Assembly (NCBI RefSeq): GCF_964355755.1
Contig: NC_092671.1
Coordinates: 11,481,001-11,545,000 of the forward strand
Length of the DNA stretch: 64,000 nt
Direction: 5' to 3'
Origin: Antedon mediterranea
Lineage: Eukaryota; Echinodermata; Crinoidea; Comatulida; Antedonidae
Each line of letters starts with the position of its first letter. Positions within the stretch are counted from its first letter, which is position 1. The translations under genes and the position numbers were made by a program. The notes beneath the pieces are model-generated. The model was not told the DNA's origin. It did not search any database and saw only the letters and a list, made by a program, of their open reading frames with translations. This document shows positions 3,025-64,000 of the stretch, one piece after another.

Positions 3025-22150
<19,126 letters not shown>

Positions 22151-25605: not shown

Positions 25606-27590
25606 TGATTTGATTTGATTTATTTCGGCATCAGTACATAAAATATCACAGACATACAATTAAAATTGGCAAATATAAAAAGACCAATATAAAACAAGGA
25701 TGCCAAGGATAACTCATAAAAGTCCTCTACGGACTTGTTTCCAATGAGGTCCTTTGAGAGAACAGCAAAAAAGACAAACAAAGCAACAATAAAAATTACA
25801 AAAAACAGCAAAAAGGACAATCGAAAAAAGAAGAAGCGCTAATTAAATAGTTTCTAGAGCTAGTGAACGTTCCTGTAGATACTTTTTAACTTTACTTTTA
25901 AAACAACAAACAGTTTGTGATTCCTTAATGTTAATTGGTAAATTATTCCATTCTTTAATAGCATTGTAAAAAAAGGTCACATGTGCCATTGGCTTGATAG
26001 TTGGGATTCTAAAATTAAAATTGCATCCCCTAGTATTGTAATTATGACTGTCTGAAATTCTAATAAAACGATTGCATAAATAAGGTGGACAACAATGATT
26101 AAATATTTTAAAAACATGACAGACTCTAAGAAATTCGACACGGTCTTGGACTTTTAACATACCAACGTCGTTTAGCTGAGATTGACCAACATGAGATCGG
26201 GGACCTAACTTTTTTATAAAACGAACCATTTTGTTTTGAGTCGTTTGTAATTTTGATTTTAAATTTTTATTTACCGTAGAAGACCATGAGCAAACCGAAT
26301 AATCGAACATCGGTTGGATTAAAGCAAAACTAAGAATTTTGCGACAATGTGAATTAAGAAATGATGATTGTCGGTACAGAAATTTCAGTCTGCCGTTTGC
26401 TTTGTTTATAACAGAGCGGGCAATGACGTCACCTGATACATTTTGGTCAATCTCAATACCTAGATATTTGATAGATTTTGATCCATTTATAGTCGTTCCA
26501 AAGCAATCAATATAGAATTCGTTTACTTTGCTTAATCTACGTTTAGAACCAAACAGGATGCATTCGGTCTTACCCATATGAAGCGAAAGTTGATTGTCGA
26601 TCAGCCAATTATTGCATGATACGAGATTGTTTTGGAGTTTAGATTGGATTGCGATTGGATCTTTATGGGAGTAAAAAAATTGCACAATCGTCAGCGTACA
26701 AAACAACTTTACAATCACTTTCGATACTAGATGGTAGGTCATTCACGTAAATAAGAAACAAGAGAGGACCCAAAAGGCTACCCTGGGGGACTCCACATCC
26801 AATCTCAATAGAGTTCGATTTGGTACCTTTAATATCGACAATCTGATTTCGCCCAGACAGGTACGCTTGAAACCAACCGATAGACCGGCATCCTAGATAC
26901 TTAAGTTTTTTACACAAAATATCATGATTGACCGAGTCAAAGGCCTTTTGGACATCGAGTAAAACCATACCCGTAAATAAACCATTTGACATTTGAACTC
27001 TAAGGTGATCTCTAAGATGGATAAGACATGTGTCGGTAGAAAATGATCTACGAAAACCGGATTGATGATCGTAGATAAGTTGATTCCTTTCAAGGTAATC
27101 GGAAACTTGTATATATACCACCTTCTCCAGAATTTTTGAAACTGAGGAGAGAATGCTTATAGGTCTGTAATTGTTAGCCTCAGTTCTGGAATTCTTTTTA
27201 TGAAGGGGCGTGACTTTTGCGAGTTTAAAATCCGAGGGAATACGTTCGTATTTAATGGAGAGGTTAATTATATGTGTTATTGGTATTTTAATATTAGGAG
27301 CTCCGTCTCTAAGAAATTTTGCAGGAATCTGATCAAGGCCTACACTTTTAGATGGGTTGAGATTTCTCAATTCCTCTTCGATAAGGCTCTCATCAATTTC
27401 TTCGAGAGAAAAACCAGAAACATGTTTGATTTTGCTATTATAGTAATTTTTAAAGGCATTCGAACCCACACTAAAAAGGTTACTGGGAGAAGGCAATTTC
27501 TTCATTAAATCGGAAGCAATATTTGCGAAGTAATGCTTATCTTTTGATTCTTACGTCTGTTGGCTTCAGACATATAGCACTGTACAGTAG
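25606..27590 (-). mobile_element. CR1/jockey-group LINE, 5'-truncated
   Basis: The minus strand encodes a reverse transcriptase in two overlapping frames (27505-26663 and 26742-25843), with further coding upstream of 27505 (KDKHYFANIASDLM). Visible RT blocks are NPSKSVGLDQIPAKFL, NNYRPISILSSVSKILEKVV, GFRRSFSTDTCL, LLDVQKAFDSVNH, GVPQGSLLGPLLFLIYVNDL and YADDCAIF. The C-terminal part (MVRFIKKLGPRS, FYNAIKEWNNLP) is typical of the group. One extra T in a T run just after YADDCAIF shifts the frame. The endonuclease domain is absent. The 3' end reads ATGCCGAAATAAATC followed by AAATC repeats (25606-25625), so the true tail is present. It is a dead copy. Confidence 0.92.
25843..27505 (-). pseudogene. 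LINE reverse transcriptase ORF with one frameshift
   Basis: The two reading frames meet near 26665-26675, where the homopolymer TTTTTTT is one base too long for YADDCAIF to continue into YSHKDP. With that base removed the RT palm, thumb and C-terminal regions are otherwise open for about 550 codons, which implies fairly recent insertion. Confidence 0.85.
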
Positions 27591-37473: not shown

Positions 37474-39493
37474 ATGGAATGGTTTATGTTTATGCTGACC
37501 TTTGGTCTGTCCTTTGAGAATGTTGTAAGCCGAACAAACCAAATAATCGATAATGTCGATTTTTATGCCAATCGATCGTATACTTTTACTGCAGACGGTA
37601 AATGTGAAACTTTAGTGACTTGGGATTACCGTGAATCGCCACAAGAAATGCCTACTGTCCTCGCCAATAACTTCACAGTGTCCGCCTTTAAACGTTCCAG
37701 AGTCCTAGCAGACGTTAATAACACCACCAATCCTACACTGAATATCAGATATGCTAAATACAGTGATCAAGGTATTTACAGATGCTGGTGTTGGCGAAGA
37801 GTCTATAAACCAATCAGTCTGAAAGAGGTTTGGCTGGGCCAAGTTAACACTTCTACGCGAAAAATAAACTGGAGAGAACCATATGCTGAAATCTTAACAG
37901 ATAGTCCAGATAAGCTACCTATACATTCAAACGTTGTTTACAGATGTGGAGAGACACACAGTGTAAATGCAGTTATTGGCTCTGTTCGGTGGAAAGTTAA
38001 CGTAACAAATGACAGATTTAAAGTAAATGAAGACGCCATGGAGATACGTGGTATTCAACCAACTGACAATGGTACCGAGATTTGTTGTGAATTTGATGCA
38101 ATATCGTTTAAAAAGAGCAGTACAGTACCTTATGCAATGACCCCGAAAGCCTATAAGATCCTCGTTGTTACGTCAGCAGAGCACCCATCAACCAACACGG
38201 TAATCTTATTAACAAGCTCCACCGGCACAACGCTGATAATGAACCGGAGTACCAAAAAGGTAGAGACAATAAGATAATTAGTAAAGAAATTGATATGATG
38301 GTTCATTTAGTGTAAACCAATATTAGTATTTATACTGGTTTACACTCAATGAACCATTTCAATATAGATAATATTAATTTAGATGGTTATAATTAATTTA
38401 TGTAATTAATGAAATGATCATTATGATCTTTTTATTTATTTTTTCTAACTTGAGTGATATGATACACTTTTCTTTGCAGACTAATCACTGGTACAATAGA
38501 TTACCAAAATGGGTGATGATATACAGTACTGTTTCTATTGTTTTCTGTGTGTGCATTGGTATCTGCATTGCCCTGTGTATAAGAAAAAAACAGAAAAAGA
38601 AACAATGGATTAATAACACAAATTGCAAGGAAAGCTGGGGAAGATTTACATCTAAGCCCCCCAGAAATAGATCTAGGCATAGGTTGTCTTTACGGCGTCT
38701 ACGGCAATATTTTAGTGTTCTTGGAACTGGCCACGTATATGAACACGGAATACCAATCCAATTACCTGACACCCCGTGTGTTCATAGAAACAACTCACAT
38801 ATGCTTACACAACAGCAAACCAGTCCTCTTGATGAACTATACCTTAACACTATGGACAGGAGAAAGGAACGGCAGGAGAAGCAGCCAAAAGATACGCATC
38901 TGCAACAGTTGTCGACGAATGAACGACTGGAAAGGCAGCCAAAAGATACGCATCTGCAACAGTTGTCGACGAAGGAGCGGGAGAAGGAACCAAATGTGAC
39001 AAGGAATCTGAAACAGACTGCCACAAAGGAACATGAGGGTGAAATAAAAAACTACACAATAGACCACATGGACATGCCACCGCAACAATACACAAGAGAG
39101 AAGCTGGAAGGGAAGCAACAGAATGATACCGACACCATAGACACACATCAACATCACACTAAAGACTACCAACGAAAGGCATACAATCACACAAGAGAAA
39201 TATGTAGTAGGCAGACTGGAAAATTGCCAACGACAGCTGCTCACAAAATAGGCCTACAACATGGCCGTACCGCAACAGGACATGAAGACGCAATTACCCT
39301 AATGACAAACATGAGAAACACAAATGAAAGGCTGCAAAGACCAACGAGAGAGATGCGGACATCAGAAGAACACTTAAGTAGGCCTAAAATACAAGAGAGA
39401 CGTCGACCACGCGCAACGAGAGTGACCAAAGAACCGTGGGTAATTTACAGAAAACCGGAAAGTAACATTTACATGAACGTAAATCAAAAGTAA
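37474..39493 (+). CDS. single-pass membrane protein with two Ig-like domains and tyrosine motifs in the tail
   Basis: Two exons, 37474-38259 and 38480-39493, join in phase 0 (599 aa). Residues 1-20 look like a signal peptide (MEWFMFMLTFGLSFENVVS). Ig-like domain 1: Cys44, Trp50, then LNIRYAKYSDQGIYRC with Cys104. Domain 2: Cys158, Trp173, then MEIRGIQPTDNGTEICC with Cys204/205. Many NXS/T sequons. Residues 274-296 form a membrane span followed by basic IRKKQKKK. The tail of about 300 residues is hydrophilic and low in hydrophobics, with an 18-residue segment (QPKDTHLQQLST) duplicated at about 397-432. It carries YLN (383-385) and YMN (593-595), which fit the pYxN consensus for Grb2-type SH2 domains. 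I do not recognise an orthologue. An immune or adhesion receptor is an inference. The ATG is preceded by no other in-frame ATG. Confidence 0.8.
38298..38357. repeat. 22-bp inverted repeat hairpin in the intron of the Ig-domain gene
   Basis: ATGGTTCATTTAGTGTAAACC and GGTTTACACTCAATGAACCAT pair with one mismatch across a 16-bp loop, 39 bp after the donor. Confidence 0.85.
38881..38988 (+). repeat. 54-bp coding tandem duplication
   Basis: GCAGCCAAAAGATACGCATC followed by TGCAACAGTTGTCGACGAA occurs at 38881 and again at 38935, nearly identical, so it is recent. It keeps frame. Confidence 0.9.
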
Positions 39494-40196
39494 AGAAGTT
39501 AGATTTTGTTTTTAAACACACATAGTCAATTTTACTAAACGCTCGCGCACCTTGCTGCCAAATGGAAATATTAACCGCGTGTGAAAATCCCGGTGAAAAT
39601 AATAATAGTAATATTAACGTTTTGGACATTATTATATTTATGAACATTTTATCCAGACGTGCTCCTATAGGGTGAGGAATCATATTTCGTCACCAGAATA
39701 TGGTATCTAAGTAAAATTGGTGTCAAAATGTGCAGAAGTAAAAAAGGAAGAATACTTAAAATAGAAGTCATGTCTTTGGATCAAATCTTGACCACTAAAA
39801 ATGAGGTCAAAGGTCAAAAAGTCAAATTTTCTACATAAAATGGCATATAATTGATATTTCAGCAACATATAATGGTATATTGATGTTAAAATATGTAAAA
39901 AAAAAAGAATAAAACTTGGAACAAAAACAAACAACTTAAAAAATGAGGTCAAAGGTCAAAACTATTTATTCTATCATGAACATGCTGCTATTACTATTTT
40001 TTTTTTGTTGGAAAAAAAAACCCCAAAACATTAACTTTGACTTATTGAGGCGTACACGGTGTCAAAACGCACAGAATAAATGGGTCAAACTAACTTGACA
40101 ATGACCCTAAACCAAGTCTTGACCACCAAATACAAGGTCAAGATAATGCTGATAATAACTTGCAGTAACTATCACCAAAACAAAATAAATTAATAA

Positions 40197-41520
40197 TTAT
40201 AGTGCTTCATCTTCATCGCTGTCAATTAGTTCTTCTGCATCTGTGTTATCCTTTCCATTCTCGCAATGTCCACTGCACACACCACATGCAGATACACATG
40301 ACATGCTAGCTTTCATGCAGCTGCATCTCATGGTTTGGCATTGCCTTTCGCCTTCCTTGCAATTGCAGGAGATTCCTTTGAGAAGCTTGTCTGGCGCAAT
40401 ACCACAAGAGAGCATCTTAGGTTTAAGTTTTCAGTTGGAGTCTAATTCCCATCCTCTTCCTTTGGGTTCAAGAACCGAGGTGTTCAGATGCCTCCATATC
40501 CCAACTTGAAGATGAACACGCAGGGAATGTTGAGCGGTTGCATATTCCGTTGGTGGTAGACGGTCAGGATCGATCTTTCCTTTGGCTGCTTGCTTCTTGA
40601 ACTTAAGATAGCGAGGCTTTTCAAGAGGAGTATCCCCACAGCCATATGTGATCTGCATTGCCTTTGATCCGGCTGTTCGAATTTGTGAGACAGGTGAAGT
40701 GGTACATGTAGATGTTGTGATGACACTGGCAGGAAATTTGGATTTGTAAAGAGCACATTTGGTATGTCCATGAATGCATGAAACAGTGTCATTTCTAGAC
40801 CAGCCATACTTGATGAGGAACTCCTCGCGGTCACAGATGTCTATGGTAGAGATGTCGTAAAGACCAAAATCTGCTTGAAGATACAAGTTAGTACAGTCGA
40901 TAGGTCTATGATAGCAGAGCAAAATCAAAATATCAGTGTCCTGGGCGACAACAACAACTGGTGAATTAACACCTACGACCAAATCCATTGCAGATCTAAC
41001 AATCAGTGTGTCACCATCATCCTTTGCTTGGCGTACAGTGATATGCTGTCTTGCCATCTCTGTATATATCATCGTGATTAAGGCTCCTTTGTTCTTCTCA
41101 TTTGCCAGGAATACCTCTCTATCACATGACACAGTCAGGTCCAGTGTGACACTCAAGTCCGGAGAAACCTTTTCCAGCCATCCGGCGTATATGCTCATGG
41201 TCTTTCGTTGATGATTCTTCCCCGTAGTCATCAAACACGACGGTAGCACTCTTGAATTTGTTGTCAACATACCTGACATAAGAATCAACTATAGCCTTGA
41301 CAGTTGCTCCGCTGGCCCATTTTACCTGATGAAGAATCCATCCTCCATCAACCACGTGCACCTTGCTGTTCATGTCTACATCGAGTTTTGTAGCTTTCTT
41401 CTTTAGCATCTGGCCAAATTCATGTTTTTTTGGTTTCCTCATCATGCAGTCTATTGTGAAATTACATTGCTGCTTGGTCCATTGGTGGTCTCCTGAGAAA
41501 CAGGTTTTGGCTGAGGGTTA
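40197..41520 (-). pseudogene. DTD-motif / Cys-rich (CXC-like) multicopy protein, left-arm copy, broken
   Basis: Minus strand, three consecutive frames: 41445-41122 (open upstream to about 41520), 41288-40431 and 40415-40197. Visible blocks are KVHVVDGGWILHQVKW, SATVVFDDYGEESSTKDHEH, VSPDLSVTLDLTVSCDREVF, GDTLIVRSAMDL, VVVVAQDTDILILLCYHRP and NDTVSCIHGHTKC. The C-terminal Cys cluster has Cys residues spaced C-x-C-x6-C-x4-C-x-C-x6-C-x3-C-x2-C-x3-C, then Asn. Two breaks against the right arm: a 2-bp deletion after RRMAGK near 41170, and TGA for AGA near 40428-40430. The DTD block recalls PIN/FEN-like nuclease folds and a large multicopy family I have seen in invertebrate genomes; the Cys cluster recalls CXC (tesmin/TSO1) domains. 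Function unknown. The acidic end is EELIDSDEDEAL. Confidence 0.75.
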
Positions 41521-42093
41521 TCTGTTTTAAGGCCATTTTCATATAAAGATATTGTGGAACCACGTCAGGTCAAGTTCAATATTGAATGTCGAAACGTGGC
41601 AGGCTGAAGGCGCTTGACCTTTGACAAGATCGCCTAATTTTTTTGTATATTAACTTTACAATACCTAGTGTTGTATATTCTGGTACAGCAGCTCCATAAT
41701 CTCTTTGCTTTTCTTCATTATATCTATATTTTTTATTTATACTAACAAATATCTTTTTATTAATATTATAATAATAATAATATATCAAAAATTGATTAAA
41801 TAATATTTATCGCATAATATACAACCTACGTATACGATAATTTAATTAATTGATATAAAAAATAATTATAATGATATTATATTCGATATTATACCCAACT
41901 ACTATCTCCAATTCTTTATCATTAGAATAAAAGAAAAAATCACACATCTACACATAATCAAACATTGTATACTCTATCTCTAACATTTTTTTCAATCTTC
42001 TATTGACTAAAGCCAAAGTATTTAGTCGTTATCTCGGGACCGTTCTATAGTTACCACCAGGCAGGCTTACTTCATCAAAGCTTCTATGAATGG

Positions 42094-42902
42094 ATGTATT
42101 GGTTGGGAGCAGAAAAATTAATAGACCATACCCAGTACCGTTTTGATTACGATCAATCGGGAAATTACCTCACGAAATTCAAGAGTGCTACCGTCGTGTT
42201 TGATGGCTACGGGGAAGAATCATCAATGAAAGACCATGAGCATATACGCCGGATGGCTGGAAAGAAGGTTTCTCCGGACTTGAGTGTCACACTGGACCTG
42301 ACTGTGTCATGTGATAGAGAGGTATTCCTGGCAAATGAGAAGAACAAAGGAGCCTTGATCACGATGATATCTACAGAGATGGCAAGACAGCATATCACTG
42401 TACGTCAAGCAAAGGATGATGGTGACACACTGATCGTTAGATCTGCAATGGATTTGGTCGTAGTGTTAATTCCCCAGTTATTGTTGTCGGCCAGGACACT
42501 GATATTTTGATTTTGCTCTGCTATCATAGACCTATCGACTGTACTAACTTGTATCTTCAAGAAGACTTTGATGGCCTGCGTGTTCATCTTCTAGTTGGAA
42601 TATGGAGGCATCTGAACATCTCGGTTCTTGAACCCAAAATAAAAGGATGGGAATTAGACTCCAACAGAAAACTTAAACCTAAGATGCTCTCTTGTGGTAT
42701 TGCGCCAGACAACCTTCTCAAAGGAATCTGCTGCAATTGCAAGAAAAGCGAAAGGCAATGCCAAACCATGAGATGCAGCTGCATGATAGCTGGCATGTCG
42801 TGTGTATCTGCATGTGGTGTGTGCATTGGACATTGCGAGAATGGAAAGGATAACACAGATTCAGAAGAACTAATTGACAGCGATGAAGAGGAAGCACTAT
42901 AA
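42094..42902 (+). pseudogene. right-arm copy of the DTD/Cys-rich protein, internally deleted
   Basis: Plus strand, frames 42094-42510 and 42507-42902. It repeats the left-arm protein from KFKSATVVFDGYGEESS through GDTLIVRSAMDL, then shifts frame after DLVV, continues ILLCYHRPIDCTNLYLQ, and skips about 110 residues to LRVHLLVGIWRHLN. It then gives the intact C-terminus with the Cys cluster and EELIDSDEEEAL. Its N-terminal part (about 42094-42176) is unrelated to the left copy. AGA at the site where the left arm has TGA. Confidence 0.8.
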
Positions 42903-43426
42903 TTATTAATTTATTTTGTTTTGGTGATAGTTACTGTAAGTTATTATCAGCATTATCTTGACCTTGTATTTGGTGGTCAAGATTTGGTTTAGGGTCATTG
43001 TCAAATTTAGTTTGACTCATTTATTCTGTGCGTTTTGACACCATGTACGCCTCAATAAGTCAAAGGTAATGTTTTGGGGATTTTTGTTAATTTAAAAAAA
43101 AACAATCACTCATAATAGCATGTTCATGATAGAATAAATACTTTTGACCCTTGACCTCATTTTTTAAGTTGTTTGTTTTTGTTCCAAGTTTTTTTCCTTT
43201 TTTTTCTACATATTTTAACATCAATATACCATTATATGTTACTGAATATCAATTATATGCCGTTTTATGTAGAAAATTTGACTTTTTGACCTTTGACCTC
43301 ATTTTTAGTGGTCAAGATTTGATCCAAAGACATGACTTCTATTTTAAGTGTTATTCCTTTTTTAATTCTGTACATTTTGACACCAATTTTACTTAGATAC
43401 CATATTCTGGTGACGAAATATGATTC

Positions 43427-44401
43427 ATACAAGAATTATAGCTATTTGGCAACGGTCAATGAACTTTGACCTCCGATAAAAAATTTTCCCCAGCCCCTAT
43501 GCTCCCTTCTTTTTTTTTGGTAGTTGTCCATACCCATACCTACCAAAATCAGTTGAAATTTGCTTCTTTTAAATTTTTTCACAGATAAACCTTTAGTTAG
43601 GGATACTAATTAGGCCTATTTAGAGAGTTGACTGTAATAGTTATTTACATTTTTATTAAAAATCATTGAAATTAGCTGTAAATAAAGGATTGATTAAACC
43701 AATATAATTTAATTTGGGAACATCATTATTTGTTACGTGTACGTTAAAAAATAAAAATGTATAGGGTCAATACCAAGTACTACACTGTCTTTGCTAATAC
43801 ACTTCTTAACTACAAACGAGAACAGACTTCCGATTTAAAGAGGGCGCTATTTGGCATTACGTCTCGTGTGTGTCTCTGCTGCTGCTCTGCTGCTGCTTCT
43901 CTGCTGCTGCTCATCTCCTCCCACCATCCAGGGGCCGAAAGAAAATAAAAAAAAGGTTTGTTGGAATTTCCTGAAAAGCATTGTTTGTGTGGTAACTAGT
44001 TACTGTAAGTGTACTTATTAGGGTCCGATATAACTAGCCTATATAAAGTAGTAGGCGTACGTAAGTTGTAGTTCTAGGCCTAGCCTAGATAGAGGCCTAT
44101 GCTAGCTAGGCTAGGCTAGAGAGGTAAGAAAGTGGGCCTTTTGCGCCTCTATATAGGAGGCCTAGGGCCTATGCAGTTTCGTGACATGCGGTGGATGCAC
44201 ATGTAATGCATGTGTTATTTTTAAGCCTACCTAGTAGTATTGTAATGTATCATAATGAATCTGCATACCATACGGTTACAGAATATCCATTCGAGCCTAA
44301 ACTAGGCCTATCCAATAATTAATTTAACTCATAATTTTTAATGTATTGAATGTACAGTATTGACATTGTATGAAGCCTTGACCAATCACCAACTAGACAT
44401 C
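43427..44401. promoter_or_regulatory. pyruvate kinase 5' region
   Basis: Contains a CTG-rich microsatellite (43876-43913), an A-rich stretch followed by GGTTTG that could be a first-exon donor near 43956, and a cluster of AGGCCTA/GCCTAGGC motifs at 44071-44170. No TATA box is evident. Confidence 0.35.
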
Positions 44402-61500: not shown

Positions 61501-64000
61501 TTTCAGTTGACTCATTTAGATTAAAAGCCATTTACAAATAATGAAATGTTATTAACCAAAGAAGTGTTTCTATTTTTTGCAGCATATAGTACATTCTATA
61601 TACTAGGTACATTATTTGCAATGCAAGTGCCGTTTGTAGGTTTTCAGCCAGTTCGGACAAGTGAGCATATGGCTGCAGCAGGTATGGAATATGTCATTAG
61701 TATACGTTCAAATGAATATGTTAATGTTCAAGAGAATTAACCTATTTTTCTGATAGCAAAATAGAACAGTTTACTAGGCCACACTAAGTTTTTGTTGTTT
61801 ATTTTAATACCTGGATAAACCAACATTAGCCTATTTCTCATCAAAAGCCACTGTAACAAAATAGGACAGTCTGCCAGGTTACACTAAGTTTGTTGTTTAT
61901 TTTAATACCTGGATAAACCAACATTAGACTATTTCTCATTAAAAACCCCTGTAACAAAATAGAGCAGTCAGATTTAAAAGAGTTGTTTGCTGATTAATTA
62001 CATTAATGATTTGCCTAGGCTCTTGATTAAAGGCCAATTAAAAATGTATGCAACTTAAACAAGTTATACAAAGATTTGATCTTGTCAACCTTTTGTCTAT
62101 GTTCTTAGTCTACGTTTGATTAAAGGCCAGCCAATTAATAATTTACACCACTTTTTTATACAACATTTGTTCTCTTGTTTTAGGAACTTTTGTCTTGCTG
62201 CAAGCCTACGCATTTTTTAAATACATTCAGAAAACCCTAACAAAGCAAGAATTCACATCACTGTTCTTCTTCTCAATTCTTGCTGCTGCTGGGGGTGTCT
62301 TTGTTAGTGTTGTTATTCTTACATACAGTGGTAAGTAACTTCTACACATATGTTTATCAGTCTATTTCGTGCCTAGCTTACCTGGATAAACCTACATTTA
62401 ATTAGCCTATTCTCTCCGAGAAAAGAAACTACTTTTGGTTTGTGTATTTTCTTTTGCTAATTTTAATAATAATGATATTGTTACATACACCCATTTTTTT
62501 GTATAGGTTATGTTGCTCCCTGGAGTGGTAGATTTTATTCTCTTTATGATACTGGGTAAGTAAACATTTTTGCATTTATTTTATGCTGTGAAAATATCTG
62601 AATGAATTCAATTCCTAGACAGGGGTACAATTGTGGTAGCTTAAGTATCGAACACTTCCATTACTTAATGCTTATAATTTACCTTAAGAATCTCTGATCT
62701 AGATTTCTCCATGTATCTACAACCTCATCATTTTGGGATGGTAATATTTTATTCATGAGGACATTTCTCGAATGATTATAATCAAAACGACACTGGGTTT
62801 GGTCTACTAGCGTTCCTGATCCCCAAATCCATTCATAGAAACACTGATGAAGAAAGTCTCTTCGTGGTGGCTATAGAGTGGTCCTGGGACATGACTATAC
62901 TTCGGCTTTAGTTGATAGAAGTTTGAAATGTCATTTAATAAGTTGTTTTATGGATATTTTAATTTTTATATAATAAGACTTAATGTATTTAAATTCCTCG
63001 GTTTTCTTTCAAGATATGCTAAAATTCACATACCGATTATCGCATCAGTGTCTGAGCATCAGCCGACAACTTGGGTATCTTTTTTCTTTGATCTTCATAT
63101 ACTTGTGTGTACATTCCCTGCTGGTCTTTGGTTTACAATTAAAGATATTAATGATGAAAGAGTTTTCAGTAAGTATCTTTTAATTCTCTAGCAATCCCCG
63201 TTAACATACATATATTCTAAAATACTTCATATAAATACACTAGAACCTTTATTATATGGGACTGCTGACTCTTGTAGTTACAGTAATCGTATTACTTTAG
63301 CAGTCCCTGACCAATTTCATCTTTTTACATTGTATATTATGTTTTGTTGGTCAGATAAATAAATGAAATGAAATTATATGGACAACTTCAAGACCAAAGA
63401 AAGTGTTTATACAGCTATTCCCTTAATATTAGTGTAGTGTTAATATGTACTGTATATTCACGCTTGTTTGTTTCATGGAAAAGTGTCCCTTTAATAATGG
63501 TGTCCAGTTAGTAGTTGCTCATAGTGTTAACATATATATTTCCCCTTCGTTTTTTGAGAAAGTGTCCCTTTAATAATGGTATGCCATTAATAGTAGTTAG
63601 TTGTAGTGTTAACATATATATTCCCCTCATTTGTTCACTGGAAAGTGTTCCTTTAATGTTTTACTACAGTATATTATGATTGTACTTTTTTGTTGGGAGT
63701 GGCACGCCTAATCGGCGACAGAAGCTGTTGGTCACTTTTGCCACTCTTTGGCGCAATCTAGCTATTTTTTGTCTTGTTTTGTTTGTATAAATGTGTTTGC
63801 CGAAATAAATAAAATAACAATAAATAAATTAACATTTTTAATTTAATTTTATCTTTGATTCCAGTTGTTTTATATGCAATAAGTGCTGTGTATTTTGCCG
63901 GTGTCATGGTCCGACTGATGTTGACTTTAACACCTGTTGTATGTATACTATCATCAATCGCAATATCAAAGTTACTAAGTGAATATCTTTTGGATGAAAC
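55550..64000 (+). CDS. STT3B: STT3B-type oligosaccharyltransferase catalytic subunit, 5' part
   Basis: Twelve coding exons in phase, then the window edge: 55550-55758, 56327-56435, 58467-58576, 59389-59477, 60107-60195, 60543-60608, 61078-61177, 61583-61681, 62184-62330, 62507-62555, 63014-63168, 63865-64000 (452 complete codons). It is a polytopic ER membrane enzyme that moves the Glc3Man9GlcNAc2 glycan from dolichol diphosphate to Asn-X-Ser/Thr. Catalytic-site blocks are [15 protein letters not shown] (metal-binding Asp68), [41 protein letters not shown] and [21 protein letters not shown], the alanine-rich MAAAG context and [12 protein letters not shown] favour STT3B over STT3A, as does the N-terminal extension of about 35 residues before the first membrane span. 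The WWDYG motif would lie beyond the window. Confidence 0.95.
56985..57035. repeat. short dispersed repeat, first copy
   Basis: GTAGCATAGCCAAAGGCTAT followed by AGAATACCACCTTATTACTA. A close copy is at 58093-58145 (GTAGCATAGCAAAAAGCTAT). Both lie in STT3B intron 2. Confidence 0.6.
57043..57270 (+). repeat. dispersed short repeat, copy C (TATATAGCGC family)
   Basis: TTCATTCTTATATAGCGCAT, AAGCTCTCAATGCGCTGAAC, GGAAACATACTCCCATATAT, GCAGCTAGTAATCAGCGCAA. It has the cleanest 5' end of the three copies. STT3B intron 2. Confidence 0.7.
58622..58784. repeat. MITE-1 copy 7 (STT3B intron 3)
   Basis: ATCTACACTATCAAATTTTATG...CAAACTAGTTTGATAGTGTAGATAGAGCTTAA. It begins about 45 bp after the donor of exon 3. 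Confidence 0.85.
61757..61965. repeat. tandem duplication of about 104 bp (STT3B intron 8)
   Basis: TAATACCTGGATAAACCAAC and TGTAACAAAATAGGACAGTC blocks repeat twice and begin a third time. Confidence 0.8.
63465..63660. repeat. tandem repeat of about 95 bp (STT3B intron 11)
   Basis: GAAAGTGTCCCTTTAATAATGG, TAGTGTTAACATATATATT and CCCCT blocks recur; GTCCCTTTAATAATGG resembles the DNA-transposon termini near 19512. Confidence 0.75.
63686..63830 (+). mobile_element. LINE 3' end (CR1-like tail)
   Basis: Ends TTTGCCGAAATAAATAAAAT, the same GCCGAAATAAAT terminus as the LINE at 25606-27590, in plus orientation, 34 bp before STT3B exon 12. No coding part is retained. Confidence 0.6.

Follow-up and report, generated by a model that had tools for sequence, protein, structure and literature searches.

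DNA transposons of the AcademX group carry a nuclease of the XPG type, and in the Foldback elements of Drosophila long terminal inverted repeats (TIRs) make up most of the element. We know of no foldback form in the Academ group. Within this group, AcademX elements are characterized by target duplications of 3-4 bp and a nuclease, and AcademH elements by duplications of 9-10 bp and a helicase (PMC10045372). In Galileo, a member of the P superfamily in Drosophila with internally repetitive TIRs, copies without a transposase extend their TIRs with internal sequence taken up in inverted orientation (PMC3573991). In Mu killer, a derivative of maize MuDR, part of the transposase gene is present as an inverted duplication between two TIRs (PMC3440606).

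Here we describe a palindromic element in a window of 64,000 nucleotides from the crinoid Antedon mediterranea (C2:11481001-11545000 of a 354-Mb genome in 18 contigs). With a probability of about 0.9, we regard it as a palindromic (foldback) element that derives from a DNA transposon of the Academ type (AcademX-like), is non-autonomous and has decayed. The family to which it belongs resembles AcademX in its 3-bp target duplications and its nuclease-bearing protein, with full-length relatives in the same genome. By comparison, the window element is palindromic, lacks the transposase-like half and carries half-gene copies in both arms. It shares with Galileo the internally repetitive TIRs and the growth of TIRs by inverted internal sequence in non-autonomous copies, and Galileo provides a documented precedent for TIR growth by internal recruitment in copies that have no transposase. 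Galileo, however, belongs to another superfamily with other target duplications and recruits TIR-adjacent sequence, whereas the window element recruited more than 1 kb of coding sequence. Maize Mu killer would be the closest functional parallel, as an inverted duplication of a transposon gene together with TIRs is also found here, but Mu killer is one derivative locus acting by hairpin RNA, whereas the palindromes of the window family have themselves transposed to several loci. Drosophila Foldback and Tetris elements (PMC4079207) are similar in that long TIRs constitute most of the element; they differ in their ends and origin, and their arms contain no gene halves.

Overall architecture of the palindrome

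Self-comparison of positions 39000-44200 revealed inverted arms at 39677-41259 and 42175-43426 that are 94-98% complementary, with blocks of up to 433 bp, and the palindrome at 39677-43608 is real and far beyond chance (Table 1). Each arm consists of a non-coding flank of ~500 bp and an outward-pointing gene copy, arranged around an AT-rich centre. This layout agrees with a preliminary description of the locus, and the frame breaks that it noted in the left and right arms are both confirmed. The right-arm deletion, which it had put at about 110 codons, measures 339 bp (113 codons), is in frame and removes sequence kept by the left arm. The outer boundary given there does not hold, since the right end lies at 43608 and the left end is truncated. 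Consistent with elements of the foldback type, the arms account for most of the 3.8-kb element as long inverted repeats, and the terminal repeats are internally repetitive, with direct repeats offset by ~142-172 and ~340 bp.

Table 1. Features of the window element and target duplications of complete copies in its family
Feature	Position	Strand	Remarks
Left (B-side) terminal inverted repeat, non-coding	39677..40198	+	outermost ~195 bp including tip TAGTATCCCTAAATTAGCCATATATTGAGC missing
Left-arm copy of nuclease/Cys-rich half gene	40199..41577	-	nuclease region complete up to 'MMRKPKKHEFGQML'; frame disrupted by a 2-bp deletion and a TGA
AT-rich centre	41578..42175	.	partly remnant of unrelated short inverted repeat, GTGAGGTNNTTTCCCGA end at 42175
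Right-arm (A-side) half-gene copy	42176..42902	+	frame shifted near 42463; 339 bp deleted in frame at 42570-42575
Right (A-side) terminal inverted repeat	42903..43608	-	complete to tip, by comparison with other copies
True outer tip TAGTATCCCTAA	43597..43608	-	common to complete copies on C8 and C10
Expected right copy of 3-bp target duplication (att)	43609..43611	+	by analogy with five complete copies; left partner lost
Target duplication TAT	C8:7162123-7165941		exact 3 bp
Target duplication ACT	C10:18793373-18794149		exact 3 bp
Target duplication ATA	C10:13248126-13248499		exact 3 bp
Target duplication ATG	C3:8486173-8486836		exact 3 bp; sister subfamily
Target duplication TGT	C5:20723699-20726955		exact 3 bp; sister subfamily

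The terminal repeats contain perfect or near-perfect AGGTCAAAGGTCA motifs at 39804-39816, 39946-39958, 43287-43299, 43145-43157 and 43460-43472; with at most one mismatch allowed, six occur in the window against 0.11 expected. The motif, the DR1 consensus of nuclear receptors, could represent a protein-binding repeat or a receptor site. The short inverted repeat in the centre has relatives at loci L019 and L020, on C5 and at 62756-62928 in the window. This separate element with GTGAGGTNNTTTCCCGA ends spans 5402-5862 of L019 and the centre itself (41578-42175) in part; it also lies at 815-1471 of L041, and on C5 it is inserted in a gene of the sister subfamily described below.

Termini, target duplications and dispersal

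The preliminary description had named outer ends confined to this locus as the observation that would speak against an element. The outer end of the window element recurs at at least a dozen other loci (copy counts in the genome are lower bounds). Together with complete copies bearing tips and target duplications and with a second palindrome of the same layout, this upholds the proposal of a foldback mobile element. Nearly all well-kept copies, and the right side of the window element itself, continue for ~182-195 bp outside 43426/39677 and end in the tip TAGTATCCCTAA, which in the window is reached at 43608 on the minus strand. On the left, the B tip TAGTATCCCTAAATTAGCCATATATTGAGC was looked for in the window and is absent, as is the outward continuation to the tip that is present in copies L019, L020, L023, L024 and L027. 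The left arm is thus cut short at 39677, and the seemingly perfect boundary at 39677/43426, which had been taken to argue for an element, is a truncation and therefore provides no such argument. The two tip types, A and B, are different over positions 13-38 and then converge.

The copy at C8:7162123-7165941 is a complete palindrome of the same layout: it has both an A and a B tip, its target site is duplicated over 3 bp, and the window element matches it at 94.6% over 3.2 kb. Exact 3-bp duplications flank five of five complete copies of the palindromic family, as well as both full-length relatives. Given the local base composition, the chance of a 3-bp match is ~2% each, so that five out of five cannot be attributed to chance; the family has dispersed with 3-bp target duplications. 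For the window copy, whose left tip and target duplication are lost, we infer insertion from these relatives.

In the window, C8 and C4 copies, the A arm carries the 339-bp deletion with identical ends, and on C3 it lies inside a slightly larger deletion. As three or four copies thus have this deletion on the same side, the palindrome formed before it spread. In addition, the asymmetric centre is common to the window and C8 copies, and among the informative sites of their four arms, six group the arms by side, one by element and one crosswise. The near-identical arms, and a left end in the window that has neither tip nor duplication, would also be expected of a one-off local palindromic duplication of a host gene. 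That reading is refuted by the C8 copy, in which the same palindrome, with its asymmetric deletion and centre, is accompanied by a 3-bp duplication, by parts of the palindrome on C3 and C4, and by the dispersed copies with target duplications; we consider it barely conceivable.

Two loci were set aside in the course of the comparison. C11:17006642 (L019), a candidate long autonomous copy, proved to consist of a solitary end and an unrelated short repeat within an apparent CHD-type host gene, and the C7 copy (L028), a candidate ancestral single-gene form, is a deletion derivative whose right junction lies inside the coding region. At L037 (599-1238, on C5), a sister-subfamily terminal repeat forms a tandem pair (74% identity, offset 317 bp), which suggests modular TIR growth.

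The arm gene and its protein family

The genome contains ~100 matches to the protein family of the arm gene, and the window arms are ~31-37% identical to intact relatives. Acidic residues (DAD, DTD, CD) are invariant among the intact relatives, as are nine cysteines at the C-terminus. A profile built from six relatives yielded human EXO1 as the top three matches (E 2e-4 to 4e-3), in an alignment spanning the acidic residues and the SGCD/GxGK motif. In Pfam, nothing from the gene scored above the cut-off for the window proteins, and matches to XPG_I and the 5'-3' exonuclease in the relatives were sub-threshold only. A single-sequence AlphaFold model of the left-arm ORF was uninformative (pLDDT 34.5), and a phage search with a long relative gave no match. 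The arm gene corresponds to the C-terminal half of a transposon protein, with an XPG/EXO1-like nuclease and a Cys-rich motif. It had been described as a host-like gene carried by the element; it is instead the 3' half of a gene of an Academ-type transposon protein family, the one with ~100 genomic matches. The accompanying remark that no transposase is visible applies to the transposase-like half, which is indeed missing, but overlooks that the gene itself corresponds to the nuclease half of a transposon protein.

Full-length and single-gene relatives

C8 carries two elements, 7110 and 7158 bp long, that are 99% identical to each other, one of them at C8:16436259-16443368. They have target duplications TAC and TCT, TAG...CTA tips and 575-bp TIRs at 90%, and contain a 1547-aa ORF that is interrupted in one copy. 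From its N-terminus, the protein comprises CxxC fingers, a conserved central region that is a putative transposase domain, the nuclease and, finally, the Cys-rich part. Measured to a common AAGAAGC box, the left tip of these elements exceeds the right by ~10 nt, which is the same offset as that between the B and A tips of the palindromes. Compared by published features, the 7.1-kb elements appear to fit the AcademX group. The 3-bp duplication is present in the relatives (the left end of the window element being lost), and the nuclease is XPG-like (EXO1, E 2e-4). With regard to the DDD/E transposase domain of autonomous AcademX members, a conserved N-terminal half is found in the long relatives and remnants of it on C11, and the window element has none of it.

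The window subfamily has a single-gene relative at C11:9842181-9852990, which, like the C1 locus below, was pieced together from overlapping stretches of its contig, with the sequence left unrepaired. Its single plus-strand gene runs toward an A tip, which identifies A as the 3' end; the palindromes therefore carry a copy of the 3' half on the B (5') end. The locus is decayed and keeps N-terminal and transposase-like remnants, and its DNA is 95.8% identical to the window over 409 bp. Where the left arm of the window begins MMRKPKKHEFGQML, the C11 relative reads FELTPFPTSLFTMDRMMRKPKKHEFGQML, and upstream of this point it goes on with FELTPFPTSLFTMDR. The window palindrome derives from a single-gene lineage. 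No intact transposase-bearing element with the TAGTATCCC tip was found in the genome. The C11 relative is interrupted by a Gypsy-type LTR retrotransposon (C11 ~9843019-9846800), whose gag and pol frames are long and open.

Between subfamilies, dN/dS is ~0.1 (dS saturated, dN 0.2-0.4), and the ancestral gene was therefore under selection. Within the window subfamily the values run from ~0.5 to 1 or higher, their intervals are wide, and the frames are broken. The arm gene copies thus look like passengers, broken and under no clear selection since dispersal. The strong purifying selection on the nuclease between subfamilies, together with the absence of the transposase-like half from every palindromic locus examined, could point to a separate lineage of palindromic transposons that depend on their own nuclease for movement. 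This is very improbable, however, as the window subfamily has a transposase-bearing single-gene relative on C11, the nuclease frames are broken in the palindromic copies examined and dN/dS within the subfamily approaches 1.

A second palindrome in the sister subfamily

A sister subfamily, with ~55-67% protein identity to the window subfamily, also forms palindromes, on C1 (arms of 1385 bp, 87%), at C8:22893k and at C9:16582k. Those on C1 and C9 have the same spacer-free head-to-head junction, at which ...TTTTTACACCC directly meets CAGTTGTCG..., and the C8 palindrome has the same junction region with a further deletion. This junction differs from the centre of the window element, which holds the unrelated short-repeat remnant. 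A search for a single-gene relative of the sister subfamily found none. One versus several origins was judged by comparison of the junctions, the tree alignment of all ends being too gappy. Palindromes have formed at least twice in this one genome, and because their centres differ, the two events were probably independent.

Origin and possible consequences of the palindromes

The derivation from an Academ-type transposon can be outlined as follows. The parent had terminal inverted repeats of ~500-600 bp and a single gene, whose protein joined a transposase-like N-terminal half to an XPG/EXO1-like nuclease and ended in a Cys-rich region. At an ancestral stage, the 3' terminal repeat and the nuclease half of the gene were duplicated as an inverted copy at the opposite end, where they took the place of the transposase half; template switching while a gap left by excision was being repaired is the most likely route. 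The resulting palindrome kept its distinct A and B tips, stayed transposable and spread as one unit, with target duplications of 3 bp; full-length relatives presumably supplied the proteins that moved it in trans. The sister subfamily underwent the same conversion around a different centre, probably independently. An Academ-type transposon can thus turn into a mirror-image element that bears its own nuclease gene as two half copies, and such an element is still mobile. That this happened at least twice in one genome, with traceable junctions and a decayed single-gene relative, makes the origin of foldback elements testable in an animal.

The palindromes might also act in hairpin-RNA silencing, in the manner of maize Mu killer. 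The palindrome would be transcribed into hairpin RNA and give rise to small RNAs that shut down the parent transposon, so that palindromes appear and persist where the parent has died, which is compatible with the origin and spread proposed above. The anatomy is that of Mu killer, a partial inverted transposase-gene duplication with two TIRs (PMC3440606), and the palindromes arose at least twice. Furthermore, one subfamily is left with a decayed single-gene relative only, and none was found in the other. Yet the arms are now ~4% diverged and the death of the parent could have other causes, and we regard such a silencer as unlikely. The broader proposal, that palindromic Academ conversion is a recurrent route to mobile hairpin-RNA silencers which extinguish their autonomous parents, seems quite unlikely; if true, it would provide an animal counterpart of Mu killer that is itself able to transpose. 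With the recurrent palindromes, their traceable junctions and the decayed relative, the idea that palindromic derivatives silence their parents also becomes testable in an animal.

Other features of the window

A 5S rRNA match at 15261-15369 (45.5 bits) may be a 5S-derived SINE instead of a gene; an 85-bp piece of it recurs, 91% identical, at L019 4062-4146 in an intron-like stretch on C11. Two overlapping reverse transcriptase ORFs on the minus strand at 25843-27550 are probably a frameshifted LINE. Positions 19516-20857 contain a tandem array of ~80 copies of a 17-bp unit, one frame of which is open for 236 codons.
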